The notes beneath the pieces were generated by a model. The model did no database searches. It was not told the origin of the DNA and worked only from the letters and a program-made list of their open reading frames with translations. A DNA stretch of 64,000 nt from Marinobacter sp. (GTDB lineage: Bacteria; Pseudomonadota; Gammaproteobacteria; Pseudomonadales; Oleiphilaceae), in contig NZ_JACUUB010000007.1 in the NCBI RefSeq assembly GCF_014859525.1, positions 1 to 64,000 of the forward strand, in the 5' to 3' direction. The position numbers and the translations under genes were made by a program. How positions within the stretch are numbered: position 1 is the stretch's first letter; each line of letters opens with the position of its first letter. Positions 393-56,413 of this stretch are shown in pieces.

Positions 393-597
393 TATCATTT
401 CCTGTTAATTGAATGAGCACAGGATTATACCACTACCGACCGGGAGAGACCCTCGCCAGAACCGTCGGTTTCTCCGACAACGGCAAGGCCAGAATCATTA
501 AAAGCAACATGAAGGTGGCGTTCATGACCCTCCCCTCAAAAACGGAAAAATAATCGCGGAGATACTAATATCGCTCACAGGCATGATTAAGGATGGC

Positions 598-750
598 TTC
601 CAAAAAATTTCGAAGGCCAAGGATGGCCTGAGAGAAGCGCACATGGGTAAGGCAAGCGTTAATGAAGCGAAGCTTCATGCGCAGCCGAACGACTGCAATC
701 TATGATTGCAGGCTGGACCCGCGTGCGGGTGCTCGTAGCGTTTTTTGGAA
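598..750 (+). repeat. Diverged intergenic palindromic repeat (copy C)
   Basis: Terminal inverted repeat TTCCAAAAAA (598-607) and TTTTTTGGAA (741-750) enclose about 130 nt. The left part holds GGCCAAGGATGGCC (615-628), which folds as a 4-bp stem with loop AAGGAT, then AAGCG-CACATGG, matching the core of the 16.5 kb repeat in order. The second core hairpin is degraded. Two further hairpins lie inside, around 662-678 and 692-711. The repeat sits between yjdM and yaiI. The flanks 399-597 and 751-878 show no convincing gene; a 46-codon frame at 413-553 lacks a ribosome binding site. Confidence 0.55.
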
Positions 751-878
751 AGTGGCTCCCAATGACACAGACACCAGAACCCAGACGGCATAGAGACAAA
801 TACGCGGACCAAACCTAACAAGTCCACCCGATGAACGGTTAAAATGCACCAACGACAAGCCAATAAAGGAACACCAAA

Positions 879-1456: not shown

Positions 1457-2560
1457 ATGAAAAACAACCTGCTGACATCATTAAGCGCTGCGTGCCTTAT
1501 GACGGTCGCCAGCACCATCGTTTATGCCGAGTCCTACAGCCTGGAGACCGTTGCCGAAGGCCTTGAGCACCCATGGGGGCTTGCGTTTTTGCCAGACGGT
1601 TCAGCGTTGGTCACTGAGCGCGAAGGCCGGTTGCGACGGATCGAGAATGGCCAATTAGTGCGAGATCCCGTGTCGGGCCTGCCTGAGTTGGTCGCCTCAG
1701 GCCAGGGCGGGCTGCTGGACATTGTTCTGCATCCGGACTTCGACACTAACCAAACTCTGTTCCTGAGCTACGCCCACCGCAACAGCGACGGCATGACCAC
1801 CCGGGTAGCGCGAGCGACGTATAACGGCCAGGCCCTGGACGATGTGGAAGTGATTTTCGAAGCCCTGCCCCGTTCCAGTAATGCCCGACATTTCGGCAGT
1901 CGCCTGGTTATCGACAACGACGGTTATCTTTATGTGTCCGTCGGCGACCGGGGCGACATGGATCGGGCCCAGGATACCGCTGACGATGCCGGCGGTGTGC
2001 ATCGGATAACGATCAACGGACACCCGGTGTCAGATAACCCTTTCGTCGGCAATTCAAAGGGTAACGACACCTTCTTCACCTACGGCAACCGAAACATCCA
2101 GGGCATGACCCTGCACCCGGATACCGGTGAAATCTGGAGCCACGAGCACGGCCCCCGGGGTGGTGACGAGATCAATATTATTCGGGCCGGTAACGATTAC
2201 GGCTGGCCCAAAGTCACCCACGGAATCGACTACTCGGGCATCCCGATCACCAACAAAACGACCATGGACGGCGTGACCGACCCCCTGCATTACTGGGACC
2301 CATCCATCGCACCTTCGGGTATGGCGTTCTACACCGGCAATCTGTTCCCGGAGTGGCAGGGTGATCTCTTTGTGGGTGCGTTGCGTTCGCAAAAGCTGGT
2401 GCGCCTGACCATTCAGGATGAAGCAGTGATTGAGGAAGAAGACCTGCTAACCGGTCTTGGCGAGCGCATCCGGGATGTCCGGATGGGCCCGGATGGCGCT
2501 CTGTGGTTACTGACCGACTCCCGTCAAGGCAAGATATACCGTATGGTACCGACCAACTGA
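1457..2560 (+). CDS. PQQ-dependent sugar dehydrogenase family protein (soluble, YliI/Asd-like)
   Basis: A 367-residue secreted beta-propeller of the glucose/sorbosone dehydrogenase family. Residues 1-24 form a signal peptide ending VYA before E25. Family motifs run in order: HPWGLAFLPDG, GGLLDIVLHPDF, RHFGSRL, YGNRNIQGM, HEHGPRGGDEIN, YGWPKVTHG and a C-terminal DVRMGPDGALWLLTD. Members oxidise aldose sugars in the periplasm with PQQ and calcium. Length fits YliI. The true substrate cannot be read from sequence, and no PQQ biosynthesis genes are in the window. It converges on the GFA gene with only 4 bp between them. Confidence 0.9.
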   Translation: MKNNLLTSLSAACLMTVASTIVYAESYSLETVAEGLEHPWGLAFLPDGSALVTEREGRLRRIENGQLVRDPVSGLPELVASGQGGLLDIVLHPDFDTNQTLFLSYAHRNSDGMTTRVARATYNGQALDDVEVIFEALPRSSNARHFGSRLVIDNDGYLYVSVGDRGDMDRAQDTADDAGGVHRITINGHPVSDNPFVGNSKGNDTFFTYGNRNIQGMTLHPDTGEIWSHEHGPRGGDEINIIRAGNDYGWPKVTHGIDYSGIPITNKTTMDGVTDPLHYWDPSIAPSGMAFYTGNLFPEWQGDLFVGALRSQKLVRLTIQDEAVIEEEDLLTGLGERIRDVRMGPDGALWLLTDSRQGKIYRMVPTN

Positions 2561-9600: not shown

Positions 9601-10090
9601 GGGTTGGCTCCCTCTGTTCCTGAGTAATCAGACTGATGGCATCTTCAGGGCACACCGCAACGCAGGCCCCGCAACCGGTACATTCGTCTTCGGCAATTTC
9701 CGGGACGGCGACATGACCAAGCATGGGCGGAAACCGGATGGCCGTTGGCTCGCAGGCATCGCGGCAGGTCTGACAATGAATGTTGGCTTTGGCGAGGCAG
9801 TTATCCCGCACTTCCGCCCGCCACGAGAAGGCCTCGCGGGTAAGATCGAACACGGGTTCCGGGCAGGCTCGGGCGCATTCACGGCACAGCGTGCAGCCTT
9901 CACCAGTAAAGCGAATTTGCGGAAAGCCGCCGTCACCCCGAAACAGCACACCTTCCGGGCAAGCCTCAATGCAGCGATCACATCGGGTGCACTGATCGGT
10001 GATGGCCCCGGTTGTCCAGGGCGGCCGCCATTCTGACGCCGTCGCCCTGCCGCCACGAAGGAACAGCCGGCGGGACTCGTTCACAGCCAT
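9593..10090 (-). CDS. napF: Ferredoxin-type protein NapF
   Basis: A 165-residue cytosolic iron-sulphur protein with cysteine clusters CTRCDRCIEACP, CTLCRECARACP, CQTCRDACEP and CTGCGACVAVCP, the pattern of NapF. It begins with a short basic segment (ESRRLFLRGG). NapF is thought to help NapA assembly or iron-sulphur loading in the cytoplasm. It lies between napE (8 bp gap) and napD (8-nt overlap). napG and napH are absent from this operon. Confidence 0.95.
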   Translation of the reverse strand: MAVNESRRLFLRGGRATASEWRPPWTTGAITDQCTRCDRCIEACPEGVLFRGDGGFPQIRFTGEGCTLCRECARACPEPVFDLTREAFSWRAEVRDNCLAKANIHCQTCRDACEPTAIRFPPMLGHVAVPEIAEDECTGCGACVAVCPEDAISLITQEQREPTHA

Positions 10091-15334: not shown

Positions 15335-16150
15335 TCAGGCCTTGCCGCCCATCTTACCCATCCAGCGCTTGGATTCCTGGTGCATCAACCAATCAAACGC
15401 CCAGGGCGCATGGCGCTTGAGCATCCACATGCGGCGCTCTTTGGCGTGGGGCAGCACCCAGAAGTCCTTATCTTTCACGCTGCGGAAGATATCCTCGGCG
15501 ACGTCTTCAGCGGTGATGCTTGAGCGCTTCATCAGTTTGTTGACGTTCTGTTGAATGCCGGGGATATCCGAGCGCATGGTACTTGCCAGGTTGGTCTGGA
15601 AGAACGCCGGGCACACGCAGCTGACGTGAATACCGGCATCCCGCAGCTCCTGGCTGAGGGTTTCGGAGAGGGCAATCACGCCGGCCTTGGAGACATTGTA
15701 GCTGTCCATCAAGGGTGCAAGCATAAGGCCGGCCATGGAGGCGACGTTAACGAAGGTGCCTGAGCCTTGCTGTTTGAATTGCGGTGTGAAGGCCTTGCAA
15801 CCACGCACTACGCCCAAGACGTTGATATCAAGAATCCATTCCCAGTCACCAATGGTGGTGTCTTCAATAGACCCTGCAGAGGCAACGCCGGCGTTGTTAA
15901 CCACAACGTCTACCCCACCCCACTTCTTGACCAGATCGTCCCGGACTTTTTCAAAATCTGCCAGGCGGCGAACATCGCATTCAACAAAGTAGCCTTCACC
16001 GCCGGCCTTGTTCAATTCCGCCTCAACGGCAACGCCCTGTTCCGGGTTAATATCCCCGATGCAGACTTTGGCGCCTTCTTTGGCGTACCGCAATGCAATC
16101 GCCCGGCCCAGACCACTGGCCCCACCGGTTATGAATACTCGCTGTGTCAT
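15335..16150 (-). CDS. Short-chain dehydrogenase/reductase (SDR)
   Basis: A 271-residue SDR with cofactor motif TGGASGLG at the N-terminus, NNAG, and catalytic ASM...YNVSK. The C-terminal extension (KERRMWMLKRHAPWAFDWL) is lipophilic and basic, as in SDRs acting on long-chain or membrane-associated substrates. It lies between the kinase (38 bp downstream) and the acyl-CoA dehydrogenase, from which it is separated by 480 bp holding two palindromic repeats. Likely part of the same fatty-acyl pathway; exact substrate unknown. Confidence 0.9.
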   Translation of the reverse strand: MTQRVFITGGASGLGRAIALRYAKEGAKVCIGDINPEQGVAVEAELNKAGGEGYFVECDVRRLADFEKVRDDLVKKWGGVDVVVNNAGVASAGSIEDTTIGDWEWILDINVLGVVRGCKAFTPQFKQQGSGTFVNVASMAGLMLAPLMDSYNVSKAGVIALSETLSQELRDAGIHVSCVCPAFFQTNLASTMRSDIPGIQQNVNKLMKRSSITAEDVAEDIFRSVKDKDFWVLPHAKERRMWMLKRHAPWAFDWLMHQESKRWMGKMGGKA

Positions 16151-16213
16151 CGTCTTTCACCGTTCTACGTTGGAATTCGTTTTATGCTTTCGAGTTCTGT
16201 CACCCTGGAGTAA

Positions 16214-16330
16214 GAGCTGCTGCCGGGTAAGGCTTTCCAAAACACGCTCCTTCGGCCCATCCCTGGGGCGCTTGGGCTCCGCCATCCCTGGCTCCGCACA
16301 GTTTTGGAAAGCCTTACCCGGCAACAGCTC
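16214..16330 (-). repeat. Intergenic palindromic repeat, copy A, with ANGGAN loops
   Basis: Arms 16214-16243 and 16301-16330 are complementary over 29 of 30 bases; on the minus strand the odd pair is a G-U wobble, on the plus strand a C-A mismatch. The minus-strand core folds into GCC[AGGGAT]GGC (loop at 16284-16289) and CCC[AGGGAT]GGG (loop at 16259-16264), 25 nt apart. It lies between the acyl-CoA dehydrogenase and SDR genes, in their sense orientation. It could act as an mRNA processing or CsrA/RsmA-binding element. It lacks the plain T-tract of a terminator. Confidence 0.8.
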
Positions 16331-16468
16331 CCAGCCGGTTCAGTATGCCGTTCGTTACATCCAGAACATTCCGACAATGCCTGAACGCCTAAATGTACGC
16401 TCCGAACAAATCCGTTTTCCCTTCTGTTTTCTTGAGCACCCAATCCCTCTCACAAGTTAACAGGGGGA

Positions 16469-16571
16469 CGGCGGGGTGGGGCTTCTGAAAATGTGCGGAG
16501 CCAAGGATGGCGGAGCCCAAGCGTCACATGGATGTGCCGAAGGAGCGTTTTTCAGAAGCCCCACCCCGCCG
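16469..16571 (+). repeat. Intergenic palindromic repeat, copy B, with ANGGAN loops
   Basis: Arms 16469-16491 and 16549-16571 are perfectly complementary over 23 bases and unrelated to the outer arms of copy A. The core matches the reverse complement of copy A over about 55 nt. It folds into GCC[AAGGAT]GGC (GGA at 16505-16507) and CAC[ATGGAT]GTG (GGA at 16530-16532), 25 nt apart as in copy A. Orientation is opposite to copy A, so its GGA loops face the plus strand, where no gene is read. The rest of 16151-16630 holds nothing else I recognise. Confidence 0.8.
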
Positions 16572-16630
16572 GCCACCCCACATCCGACCAGAGGCCGGGC
16601 GAACCCGAGCTCCCAAGCTCGAACCCAGAC

Positions 16631-17842
16631 TCAGGACTTGTACTTCCGGAGCTCCAGCCGAGCCACCATCGCCCTATGCACTTCATCTGGACCATCCGCC
16701 AGCCGCAATACCCGAGCGTAACCGAACAATGCCGTCAGCGGGAAATCATCGTCGCTGACCCCGGCACCACCATGAATCTGAATCGCATCATCAACAATCT
16801 GCTGCAGCATCGCAGGCACCACCGCTTTGATCATAGAGACCTCCTGCAACGCGCCCATGATGCCCTTGGTATCCAGCGCCCAGGCACACTTCAAGGTCAG
16901 CAACCGCGCCTGCTCGATGTTCATACGGGCATTGGCGATCACATCCGGATTGCCACCCAGTTTCGCCAGCGGACGACCGAACGCTTCGCGCGTCAGGGCC
17001 CGCTTTATCAACAGCTCCAGGGTGCGCTCTGCCGCACCGATGGCACGCATGCAATGGTGTACACGGCCTGGCCCCAAACGGCCCTGGGCGATTTCAAAAC
17101 CGCGGCCGGGACCGGCGATGATAGCGCTCTTCGGCAGGCGCACGTTGTCGAACAGTACCTGACCGTGGCCATAGGGCTCATCGTAGGCACCGAATACCGG
17201 CATCATGCGCTCGATGGTGATGCCCGGGGTGTCCAGCGGCACCAGCACCATGGAGTGACGGCGATGTTTCTGTGCGTCCGGATCGGTGACACCCATAAAG
17301 ATGGCAACTTTGCAGTCCGGATGGCCGATGCCGGTACTCCACCATTTGCGACCATTGAGAACCACATCATCGCCCTCAACCGTGGCGGTGGCTTCCATAT
17401 TGGTGGCATCGGACGAGGCCACGGCCGGCTCGGTCATGCAAAAGGCGGAGCGTACTTCGCCACTCATGATTTTGGGCAGCCACTCGGCTTTTTGCTCTTC
17501 AGAGCCATAGTGGATCAGCACTTCCATGTTACCGGTGTCTGGTGCATTGCAGTTGAAGATTTCCGGCGCGATGAAGCTGCGACCGGTTTCTTCGGCAATC
17601 AGGGCGTAATCGGAATTGAGCAGGCCACAGCCGTACTTGTCATCCGGGAAGAACATATTCCACAGACCCTGAGCCTTCGCCTTTTCTTTCAGCTCCTTGA
17701 TGATCGGCAGCACTACCCAGCGGTTCTCCAAAGAGGCCAGCTCTTTGTGATACTGCTCTTCGATGGGAAAGATCTCGTCACGCATGAACTGCTTCACACG
17801 TTTGAGATAGTCCTGGCCTTTTTCAGAAATATTGAAATCCAT
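16631..17842 (-). CDS. Acyl-CoA dehydrogenase (ACAD10/11- or LvaC-like)
   Basis: A 403-residue FAD-dependent acyl-CoA dehydrogenase. Motifs: AFCMTEPAVASSDATNM and GRKWWSTGIGHPDCKV (flavin/substrate binding), EAFGRPLAKLGG, and the C-terminal QIHGGAGVSDDDFPL. The long N-terminal domain with NAPDTGNMEVL resembles ACAD11-type enzymes, which with a partner kinase convert 4-phosphorylated acyl-CoAs to enoyl-CoAs. GAGGAG lies 7 nt before the ATG at 17842. First gene of the minus-strand cluster; divergent from a LysR regulator 138 bp away. Confidence 0.93.
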   Translation of the reverse strand: MDFNISEKGQDYLKRVKQFMRDEIFPIEEQYHKELASLENRWVVLPIIKELKEKAKAQGLWNMFFPDDKYGCGLLNSDYALIAEETGRSFIAPEIFNCNAPDTGNMEVLIHYGSEEQKAEWLPKIMSGEVRSAFCMTEPAVASSDATNMEATATVEGDDVVLNGRKWWSTGIGHPDCKVAIFMGVTDPDAQKHRRHSMVLVPLDTPGITIERMMPVFGAYDEPYGHGQVLFDNVRLPKSAIIAGPGRGFEIAQGRLGPGRVHHCMRAIGAAERTLELLIKRALTREAFGRPLAKLGGNPDVIANARMNIEQARLLTLKCAWALDTKGIMGALQEVSMIKAVVPAMLQQIVDDAIQIHGGAGVSDDDFPLTALFGYARVLRLADGPDEVHRAMVARLELRKYKS

Positions 17843-17980
17843 GGTGCAGCTCCTCGCGCTTACCTGCCCCATTGGGGGCGCACTTTCGATCAGATGGCAA
17901 ACAGTCTAGAAGTCAATGCGCTATTACGCGACTGAATTGTTCTTATCGTTTATCATTATCTGCACTTATTGGGATAACGG

Positions 17981-53542: not shown

Positions 53543-56413
53543 ATGCGGCGCTGGGGCATTCGCAAAAAAGTCTTGGTGGTAACTCTGGTTCCCACCCTGG
53601 TGACCACGTTGTTACTTGGGCTGTTCTTTACTTACAGCTGGGTCACAAACATCGAGAACCTGCTCGAAGACCGTGGCGAATCGTTGTCCCGCCAACTTGC
53701 CGCGGGGTCCGAATACGGCCTGTTTACCGCCAATCGCAGCCTGCTCAGCAGCCTGTCTAATGCCCTGCTGGAAGAGCAGGACGTCCGCTCCATTACGTTC
53801 TTCACGCCAGATGGTCGACGACTGTTGCACACTGGGCCTGGTGGTGCTGATGCCGTTGCCGCAACCTCACTGAGAGCCGACCAGGCGGTGCGCGTCACTC
53901 GCGGTAGCAGTACTCGGTTTGTCACCCCCGTACACCTGCAAGATCTGATGATCGAAACCATGCTCGACCCGGATGTTCGCCAATCAGCAAACGGACGACA
54001 GGAACCGCTGGGTTGGGTCGCAGTAGAGATGTCTCACATACGGACCGAGAAAGAGACCTACAAAGCGCTGCTTATTTCTTTGCTGTTGGTGGTTGGCGGC
54101 GTGCTGCTGAGCATGGCCATTGCCCTTCGGCTTAGTCGTGCCTTTACTAATCCGGTGCTCCAGCTCAATGAGGCGGTCGCAAAGCTTAAAGAGGGTAAGC
54201 TCGACACTCGCGTTTACACCCGTGCTGGCCCCGAATTCGAGCAACTGGAATCCGGCCTGAACGATATGGCCTCGGAGCTTAGTCAGGCCCAGGCAGAAAT
54301 GCAGCAGAACATTGATCAAGCGACCGAAGATCTCCGGGAAACTCTGGAAACCATTGAAATCCAGAACATCGAACTCGACTTCGCTCGTAAAGAAGCATTG
54401 GAAGCCAGCCGGATAAAATCCGAATTTCTCGCCAACATGTCCCATGAAATCCGAACGCCGCTGAACGGCATTATCGGGTTCACTGAACTGCTGTTAAAAA
54501 GTCCGCTGCCCCGCCAACAGCGCGACCACCTGAACACTATCCGCAAGTCGTCCGAAATCCTGCTGACCATCATTAACGACATTCTGGATTTTTCCAAGAT
54601 CGAGGCCGGCAAACTGATCCTGGACCGTGTGCCCTTCCAGCTACGGGACATTACCGAAGAAGTGATGGTGATGCTGGCACCAGCGGCCCACAGTAAAAAC
54701 CTGGACCTGGTGCAACTGGTTTACAACGACGTACCAGACAACATCATGGGCGACCCCTTGCGAGTCAAGCAGGTAATCACCAACCTGGTCAACAACGCAA
54801 TCAAGTTTACCCAAACGGGCGAGGTTGTTTTAAGGGTCAGCCTTGAAGACGAAGACACCGAAGCCAACCGGGTCACTCTGCGCCTGAGCGTCACCGATTC
54901 TGGCGTTGGTTTGTCCAGAGCCCAACAGCAATCGCTGTTCAACGCTTTCAGCCAGGCTGATGCCTCTACCGCCCGGCAATATGGCGGCACCGGATTAGGG
55001 CTAGCCATTTCAAAACGGCTGGTTGAAGAAATGGGCGGCAAAATCGGGCTGGAGAGCGAGCTGGGCAAAGGCTCCACTTTCTGGTTTACCCTGACCCCCG
55101 AACTCTCAGGCGGCGCCGACAGCATGGCTCAGAAAGACGCCCTTCATGGTGAACGCGTCATCTACCTGGAACAGCAGAAAACAACTGGATTGGCGGTAGA
55201 ACACCTGTTACGTGACTGGGGCATGATCGTGGAGCGAGTCACCTCACCCGCTGCCCTTATGGAGCAAGTCGAAGAAGCGCAGCGAAAACAAGAAGGTTAT
55301 GCAACAGCGCTCATCGGCATTACCCGGCATCTGCTCAACTCCAGCCAGTATTGTAATATGGTGCGCTCACTCGAAATAGAGCGGGATTGCCGGACGCTGC
55401 TGCTAACGCCGACCCTCGAAACCCAGGATACCCCTTTATCCGGCCTGCCCAGTGGGCACCTGACCAAGCCGGTTTGCCGGGAAGCCCTGTATGACGAGTT
55501 GCTGTTACTGATCCACGGTATTCATTCTGGTTTCGGAGGCATTCAGGAAACGGCAGCACCGCTGCGCAACGGCAAACCGGTCAACGTACCCAGAATCCTG
55601 GCCGTAGACGACAATGACGCCAACCTGAAGCTGGTCCTGACTTTGTTGCAGGACTTCCGGCTGGAAGCGGAGGGAGCTTCCAGTGGTTTTGAAGCCTTGA
55701 CCAAGGTACGCCAGAAACCCTTTGATCTGGTGTTTATGGACCTGCAGATGCCGGGCATGGATGGCGTAGAAACCACCGCACGAATACGCGCACTGGATTC
55801 CGGATCTCACCACACCCCGATCATTGCACTGACCGCCCATGCGCTGGCGGACGAGCAGGAACGCCTTGCCCAGCAGGGTTTTGATGGTTATATGGCCAAA
55901 CCGATCAGCAGCATCCAGCTGATCGAGCTGATCCAGGAATACACAGGTTATAACTGTCGAAGCACCAAAGACAGCTTCAAGGTATCGGAGGTCAGGGACA
56001 CCCGTCGAACCCTGCGCCCCTCAAACCGTCGCATGCAACAAGATTGCGTCAGCATAGAAGAAAGCATTCAGCTGGCGGCTGGCAAAGCCGACCTGGCGGA
56101 GGAGTTGTTCAGCATGTTACTGGAGCAGCTGCCTGCGGATTCTGAACGGATCAGGTCGCTCTGGGATAACGGGGAAGCAGCCACTCTGCTGGAATGCGTC
56201 CACAAGCTGCATGGAGCCACCCGCTACTGCGGTGTGCCAGAATTGCGCACAGCCGCCAACCGGCTTGAAACCGCACTAAAATGCCAGGCTCATGACATGG
56301 AACTTCAGAAGGATCAGTTACTGGCGGCCATCGATCGGCTCCAGGTATGGAGCGAGCAAACCGACTGGCAACCGCTGTTCAGAGGACAGCAGCGCCAACC
56401 GGAAACCACCTGA
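53543..56413 (+). CDS. gacS: Hybrid sensor histidine kinase GacS/BarA
   Basis: A 956-residue membrane kinase. Two membrane segments (about 9-30 and 174-196) flank a periplasmic sensor region; HAMP follows. The HisKA box is [18 protein letters not shown] (H301), the HATPase has DSGVGLS and [10 protein letters not shown], a degenerate receiver-like region occupies about 535-660, the receiver has D733 in [11 protein letters not shown] and the C-terminal Hpt has H887 in VHKLHGAT. This is the GacS/BarA layout, which signals to GacA/UvrY and small RNAs that sequester RsmA/CsrA. AGGA lies 7 nt before the ATG. Confidence 0.95.

Follow-up and report, generated by a model that had tools for sequence, protein, structure and literature searches.

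Two inverted copies of a repeat with paired GGA-bearing loops lie between an acyl-CoA dehydrogenase gene and an SDR family oxidoreductase gene of a Marinobacter sp., and this locus raises the question of whether such elements act as RNA modules docking the regulator RsmA/CsrA or are dispersed repeats to which this protein is irrelevant. The stretch of DNA analysed, hereafter the window, comprises 64,000 nucleotides (assembly GCF_014859525.1, contig NZ_JACUUB010000007.1, positions 1 to 64,000). From its letters, an earlier note had described the two inverted copies, a common core of about 55 nt, and four ANGGAN loops with the GGA motifs 25 nt apart in both copies. These features were confirmed by counting on the sequence, with a core of 57 nt in each copy. 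The part of the anatomy that had been overlooked was the pair of copy-specific outer stems, of about 30 bp each (Table 1).

Architecture and family of the two elements

Table 1. Elements, their parts and neighbouring genes (positions in the window, except in the last row)
Feature	Position	Strand	Remarks
Element copy A, outer stem and two-hairpin core	16214..16330	-	GGA strand is minus, sense to the acyl-CoA dehydrogenase and SDR genes
Copy A core, 57 nt	16244..16300	-	loops AGGGAT and AGGGAT
Copy A outer stem, 5' arm	16301..16330	-	
Copy A outer stem, 3' arm	16214..16243	-	
Element copy B, outer stem and core	16463..16577	+	GGA strand is plus, antisense to the acyl-CoA dehydrogenase and SDR genes
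Copy B core, 57 nt	16492..16548	+	loops AAGGAT and ATGGAT
Copy B outer stem, 5' arm	16463..16491	+	
Copy B outer stem, 3' arm	16549..16577	+	
Spacer between divergent copies A and B	16331..16462	.	
Acyl-CoA dehydrogenase family protein gene	16631..17872	-	upstream of both elements
SDR family oxidoreductase gene	15335..16150	-	downstream of both elements; NF004196, 410 bits (cut-off 297)
Third, split family copy	586..763	+	model R1, 37.1 bits
56-nt palindrome copies (in L254)	454-509, 1338-1393, 2120-2175		two flank the Y1 transposase gene

The arms extend for about 30 nt on each side of the core and are unlike in sequence between the copies, with a complementarity of 97% in copy A and 93% in copy B; the loop starts, as the GGA motifs, stand 25 nt apart in both. 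A 29-nt core pattern, searched with up to three mismatches, matched the window at copies A and B only and matched none of 100 shuffles, which excludes a chance origin. The folding energy of the whole element was far below that of shuffles (z of -7.9 and -5.7 for copies A and B), and the cores folded alone were no more stable than shuffles (z of 0.61 and 0.99). Of the two small hairpins that had been drawn in each core, the second was absent from the MFE folds of both cores and present in the alignment fold; its support is the alignment fold and covariation, not single-sequence energy. The ANGGAT loops are able to close one extra A-U pair, as the first hairpin does in MFE folding, which the ANGGAC loops (47% of second loops) are unable to do. 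In the third copy of the window, the second hairpin loop is interrupted by an insertion of about 80 nt with small palindromes of its own. The product of the gene upstream of the elements is matched by several acyl-CoA dehydrogenase models, none above its curated cut-off.

On their GGA strands, copies A and B are covered at full length by the Rfam model RF01731, TwoAYGGAY (model positions 1-168), with 30.9 and 27.1 bits, respectively. Both lie below the gathering score of 43 bits, and the window yields nothing at gathering thresholds. The whole genome gave 35 RF01731 matches at E of 1 or less, two of them above the cut-off (48.6 and 45.2 bits), and 14 control genomes gave 0 matches. A second model, R1, was built from 70 aligned elements (alignment A1; 70 of the 120 listed references, 203 being eligible) and recovered the paralogues above the RF01731 cut-off together with copies A and B; the latter scored 107.1 and 109.4 bits, both copies being part of the building alignment. 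Given the full-length match, the shared architecture and this unbroken kinship with paralogues above the cut-off, copies A and B are almost certainly members of the TwoAYGGAY family. Weak matches of the window to miRNA and other Rfam models, with scores far under the cut-offs, were disregarded.

The family has been described in a NAR article, whose authors we take to be Gardner and Eldai, and in a listing of 2010, presumably that of Weinberg et al. The passages on TwoAYGGAY in the former (PMC4333381) report an external stem little conserved in sequence and tandem G-A pairs in one stem. Like the family, the window copies present two A-GGA-loop hairpins on a shared outer stem, and between helices 2 and 3 the consensus shows GGA facing GGA in an internal loop, where the tandem G-A pairs of the literature might form. 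Also as the family requires, 21 of the 22 arm pairs had changed on both sides, with 99.4% of the outer-stem cells paired, a figure biased by the choice of elements with paired arms. All four window loops are ANGGAY terminal loops; unlike the family name, A or G replaces Y at the second position in three of them, and one is strictly AYGGAY. The entry in the 2010 listing gives the family as probably RNA and not cis-regulatory, from human gut, Gammaproteobacteria and Clostridiales; the present type in Rfam is cis-reg, and the text on Rfam 15 adds two covarying pairs. The other articles consulted were PMC2864571, PMC11661157, PMC11701678, PMC7657543, PMC5864184 and PMC4679880. A strong match to the CsrA-binding motif, with CsrA sequestration as the proposed role, is already stated in PMC4333381, so that the CsrA-binding idea is in print and not new here. 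No functional study of TwoAYGGAY, including CsrA binding, was found in the literature searched. What is new here is the occurrence of the family as a dispersed repeat in Marinobacter.

Pairing, strand and loops

Over the 70 aligned elements, 27 of the 32 named pairs had changed on both sides (21.5 in shuffles), the both-side-changed cells numbered 514 versus 119, and the covariation score was 0.658 versus 0.164 in shuffles and 0.05-0.12 in slid controls; on all three measures, none of 500 shuffles came as high. Further pair types amounted to 71 versus 66.8 in shuffles, a value reached by 45 of the 500. Only elements whose arms were largely paired had been admitted, and the 232-element set further demanded two ANGGA loops. 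The core helices, which were not selected for pairing, covary as well, helix 2 in 4/4 pairs and helix 4 in 2/3, and helix 3, that of the first loop, never varies and is thus uninformative. The compensatory change CCC/GGG versus CAC/GTG to which the earlier note had drawn attention is real and recurrent, the middle pair being A-U in 62 elements, C-G in 7 and a gap in one.

The mismatches that remain in the arms are unequally distributed between wobble types. When 26 fixed inner pairs of 221 distinct elements were read on the GGA strand, 129 G-U, 17 A-C and 83 other mismatches were counted beside 5517 Watson-Crick pairs (G-U versus A-C, p 1.7e-22), and the called arms of 221 distinct elements gave 81, 7 and 37 (p 4.5e-17), these p-values being a rough guide since the elements are related. 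G-U and A-C were scored alike in the selection of elements, which leaves their ratio unaffected. The G-U:A-C ratio was 33:5 with an opposite 5' neighbour gene and 46:2 with a co-directional one, and 11:0 in 37 distinct dehydrogenase-antisense elements of 80 loci (the one of L116 lying elsewhere in its locus). The excess of G-U indicates that the GGA strand acts single-stranded, whatever the direction of the neighbour gene, and a function in double-stranded DNA would show no such difference, so the asymmetry fits RNA. The functional form is very probably a GGA-sense single strand; a single-stranded DNA hairpin acting on one strand would, however, give an identical asymmetry. Together with the covariation, the asymmetry bears out the selection on pairing that had been proposed from two copies.

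To what extent the GGA loops themselves are conserved was addressed by a search on arms only, in which no loop letters were asked for. It returned 242 long hairpins with 35-75-nt loops in 187 loci, and 229 of them carried at least two ANGGAH. Of the remaining 13, four (L069, L094, L107, L110) were true elements in which a loop had been lost or altered, one was masked by N and eight were unrelated hairpins. At the 80 dehydrogenase loci, 70 of 78 hairpins carried at least two ANGGAH, the rest being those four elements and four unrelated hairpins, and both loops were kept in 70 of 74 elements. Such a search misses elements with broken arms, for example L119 and L132; A-GGA is almost invariant, then, where the arms are intact, and for such elements the outcome that the earlier note had named as refuting, GGA loops less conserved than the rest, did not occur. 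Information content in 210 distinct aligned elements was 1.96-2.00 bits at the letters A, G, G and A of either loop; it was 1.47 (first loop) and 0.59 bits (second loop) at the N position, and 1.79 and 0.88 bits at the Y position. This count used 220 of the 242 hairpins, 210 of them distinct, after exclusion of those containing N, strandless or without core-like letters; one core pattern used for it touches the first loop. The loop starts were 25 nt apart in 150 of 232 elements, 23 in 39 and 24 in 34.

The elements present A-N-GGA in paired hairpin loops, as is expected of RNA bound by CsrA/RsmA. The excerpt of PMC4347634 gives the CsrA SELEX consensus as RUACARGGAUGU, with ACA and GGA invariant and GGA favoured in a hairpin loop. 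Second-loop variants such as GUACAGGGACGU are off this consensus at 1 of 12 positions. The letters before N-GGA are ACA in the second loop of 204 of 232 elements and CCA in the first loop of 225 of 232; among the window loops, ACA occurs only in the second loop of copy B, and copy A has CCA there. The first hairpin, devoid of the SELEX ACA, counts partly against RsmA/CsrA as the ligand; the A-GGA loops with free N and Y resemble CsrA sites, the second loop more closely than the first. In other families of the class, one ANGGA loop was kept and the loop of the second hairpin was ACACGA (L243, L246, L247) or ACAGGA (L244, L245, L248, L253), so not every TwoAYGGAY member has a second ANGGA site.

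Rfam places RF01731 and PrrB/RsmZ in one clan, CL00106, csrA is present in this genome, and it was found in 52/52 element-bearing genomes examined (36 of 39 genus genomes, and 16 class genomes other than this one with RF01731 matches). Because csrA is widespread among such bacteria, this co-occurrence is weak. On contig C56 of this genome (G000), its single csrA match lies about 9 kb from its best-scoring RF01731 copy (375-530 and 9833-9966). The GacS/BarA-type kinase to which the earlier note had linked the loops is indeed a full-length BarA/GacS-like hybrid kinase (53543-56413, plus strand), yet it scores 841 bits to NF008318, under the curated cut-off of 890, and at a distance of 37 kb it provides context only. 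As for RsmA/CsrA-type modules, the note's central proposal keeps the RF01731 match, the RsmZ clan and the presence of csrA on its side, and has against it the CCA, not ACA, of the first loop. A candidate RsmZ of this genome was rejected, since its best score, 23.4 bits, fell short of the cut-off of 44, 8 of 14 controls also matched and the stretch has one GGA.

A dispersed repeat and its gene context

Model R1 found 67 copies in this genome at 72-112 bits, the next match being at 42 bits, and copies in 39/39 genus genomes, from 2 to at least 104 per genome, with up to 105 candidates scored in each. In several of these the number is down to 2-11, the low of 2 being in highly complete genomes; many copies are therefore not needed. 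With stricter filters, RF01731 matched 52 of 61 genus genomes. R1 matches occurred in 26 of 76 genomes of the order, three of them Marinobacter, and RF01731 matches in 17 of 276 genomes of the class, this one included; in other families of the class they are often multi-copy too. Compared with TwoAYGGAY as described, the Marinobacter elements stand out by their dispersal in high copy number and by their divergent pairs.

Neighbour genes were counted after the 80 dehydrogenase loci and elements without a called gene on one side had been dropped, with 153 rows left; genes away from the window were called here by a trained dicodon score and are not annotations. For 107 single elements, the 5' neighbour ran in the same direction in 60 cases and in the opposite one in 47 (p 0.25); for the 3' neighbour these counts were 56 and 51 (p 0.7). 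An antisense bias seen in the list of this genome vanished in the larger set. Elements are nearly all intergenic: no more than 4 of the 107 singles lie less than 5 bp from a called gene. Of all 107, 21 are flanked by a divergent gene pair and 47 have no co-directional gene 5'. Across 158 5' flanks no sigma-70 enrichment was found (5.10 versus 5.27 in the control and 4.97 shuffled). Singles with an opposite 5' neighbour scored higher (6.18 versus 4.7), which is put down to the promoter region of that neighbour. Consensus scans of positions 16100-16700 of the window gave 0 sigma-70-like promoter sites and 0 terminator-like sites, the latter for loops of 3-8 nt only (0.7 in shuffles).

Close neighbours follow a nearly constant arrangement. 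Among 45 adjacent pairs less than 400 bp apart, 44 are divergent, their 5' ends pointing at each other (22/22 at the dehydrogenase loci, mutually orthologous, and 22/23 elsewhere, some orthologous too), and at least 11 further close pairs, judged by eye (7 in G014, 4 in G006), are all divergent. Their spacers measure 44-208 bp and show no conserved sequence by eye. The spacer of the L192 pair holds a different palindromic repeat (GTAGGTCGGATTAG..).

A sponge sRNA gene of the CsrB/Rsm type has its own GacA-controlled promoter and terminator, and such sRNAs come from few dedicated genes with many sites each. The elements are like the CsrB/RsmX/Y/Z sRNAs of clan CL00106 in that hairpins present A-GGA loops in pairs, and unlike them in being many and dispersed, with two sites each and no promoter found. 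The model of an sRNA gene with its own promoter was rejected, as the 5' flanks gave no sigma-70 signal overall and the consensus scans of the window region returned neither promoter nor terminator. For the GacA box, this genome gave one palindromic place with 1 mismatch (control, 2 per strand), beside which no sRNA-like feature was seen by eye. With no orientation bias and no promoter found by consensus scan, the context is not what a simple sRNA or UTR element would show. Aln1a-c of Alteromonas are a described marine case of CsrA-sequestering sRNAs.

The history of one site was followed at 80 loci recruited through the dehydrogenase (68 titled Marinobacter), chosen without an RNA model, the other loci having been selected through RF01731 matches. 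At least one intact element occupied this gap in 46 of the 80 (45 of the 68; 47 of the 80 under a looser loop pattern), and both elements were intact in 22, all ordered minus then plus. The 34 loci without an intact copy (23 of the 68) include intergenic gaps of 11-43 bp, with 11 bp in L092 and L099. Degenerate or one-hairpin forms occur, for example in L069, L107, L110, L119 and L132; in L119 the element is decayed with its loops lost as well, and in L132 it is truncated. The arm letters differ between species and the pairing is kept. Elements starting less than 90 bp from the dehydrogenase stop have an antisense core in 38 of 43 cases. The five with a sense core (L090, L091, L101, L103, L104) have similar arms, as though an inversion had affected the core or the whole element.

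At the junction of the SDR gene with a phosphotransferase-like gene, three species carry an element (L089 8447-8545, L102 5007-5106, L111 8275-8374). The same junction in L094, L100, L122 and L132 looks like a whole-element deletion at a short AAGG repeat, and L096 retains one side only. In such junction comparisons apparent losses were visible and no clean insertion was seen.

Competing explanations and possible function

The hairpin is very stable, as an intrinsic transcription terminator or attenuator would demand; yet no T-run lies 3' of either window copy, the scan returned no terminator-like site, A and C abound in the 3' flanks across the element set and the element also occurs between divergent genes, which makes this role extremely improbable. 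A cis-regulatory or 3'-end element of the acyl-CoA dehydrogenase/SDR operon has in its favour that it is kept at the locus across much of the genus and that copy A lies on the sense strand, as the earlier note had stressed. The special link with that transcript is not supported, however: copy B is antisense, no orientation preference exists elsewhere, many of the loci are without an intact copy and the same element stands at 65 other places in this genome, so that an operon-specific role appears very improbable. Quasi-palindrome correction at the level of DNA, by template switching, would keep the arms perfect without selection on RNA and would make covariation a by-product of replication. The rarity of wobble pairs (39 of 4641, or 0.8%, in the inner 21 pairs) and the abundance of double Watson-Crick changes agree with it. 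Such correction should nevertheless be strand-symmetric, and the GGA strand is not; moreover, 16 close orthologue pairs showed 12 G-U, 3 A-C and 12 other single changes beside 16 doubles, and the core helices covary as well. The strand asymmetry thus disfavours it as the sole cause, a role we consider improbable, while it may help to keep the arms perfect.

A more serious competitor is a selfish or neutral REP/MITE-like repeat, whose mobilising enzyme would recognise the hairpin of one strand, the GGA being letters of that enzyme and CsrA irrelevant. RAYT and integron recombinases do recognise one-DNA-strand hairpins of their sites, and REP, BIME and REPIN repeats with their RAYT are intergenic, palindromic, high-copy and found as inverted pairs. 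The present elements share all these features, the pairs resembling BIMEs, and the spread of copy number between congeners, the patchy occurrence in the order and the lack of gene-orientation bias point the same way. What sets the elements apart is an outer stem that is far longer and mostly differs in sequence from copy to copy, and the conserved two-hairpin core. In addition, the repeat flanking the one Y1 transposase match of this genome is another palindrome, no recent copies are seen (best same-genome arm identity of 0.89, genome medians of 0.43-0.57 in 13 genomes, for the loci fetched), the junctions show apparent deletions in place of a clean insertion, and free N and Y within an invariant A-GGA resembles the CsrA pattern. 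On this evidence a purely selfish or neutral repeat is rather unlikely. As to the mobiliser, RAYT was rejected, because the element does not flank the RAYT-type gene of this genome. That gene's surroundings (L254, G000:C50), a RAYT-like setting with the only Y1 transposase match of the genome, contain three 56-nt palindromes (GGGTCAGACCC..GGGTCTGACCC).

The explanation that we prefer is an RNA-acting repeat carrying paired docking loops of the RsmA/CsrA type, which is on balance probable. In this view the GGA strand of each copy would give rise to a structured TwoAYGGAY RNA, in which an outer stem of about 28-30 bp, free in sequence and kept in pairing, would hold the two-hairpin core with its ANGGAY loops. 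The two loops may together dock a single RsmA/CsrA dimer, and the transcribed element could either titrate the protein or tether it to the carrying transcript. The loop letters make RsmA/CsrA a putative ligand that is somewhat likelier than not to be the right one. A copy number as low as 2, together with the absence of an orientation bias, favours dispersal with a weak or indirect function, and retention at one site in many species with intact loops speaks for function; a decoy role beneficial to the host, rather than a tolerated repeat, is conceivable, though we lean against it.

More tentatively still, tens of RsmA/CsrA docking modules might have spread through the genome as an RNA repeat that is, or once was, mobile. 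The number of scattered transcripts bearing a decoy would then set how much of this global translational regulator is free, along with antisense or read-through transcription genome-wide, instead of or besides dedicated Rsm sRNAs. If this were true, copy number would tune the Gac/Rsm switch between species. If binding holds, a CsrA sponge on a dispersed repeat would tie repeat dynamics to global post-transcriptional control. With 2 to at least about 100 copies per genome, conserved sites and strong covariation, Marinobacter offers a natural copy-number series among congeners, which makes the published CsrA hypothesis directly testable.

Concerted evolution of the cores of one genome, hinted at by paralogue pairs, was dropped after permutation (core identity of 0.822 within genomes versus 0.819 between, with 359 of 1000 permutations as high); arm identity was slightly higher within genomes than between them (0.515 versus 0.493, 11 of 1000 permutations as high). 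Of 110 orthologue pairs whose arms had an identity of at least 0.85, 16 showed core switching with kept arms; as these pairs share elements, they reflect few events. Window copies A and B compared with L055-L057 and L077 have near-identical arms and a different core class, as if the core had been swapped.
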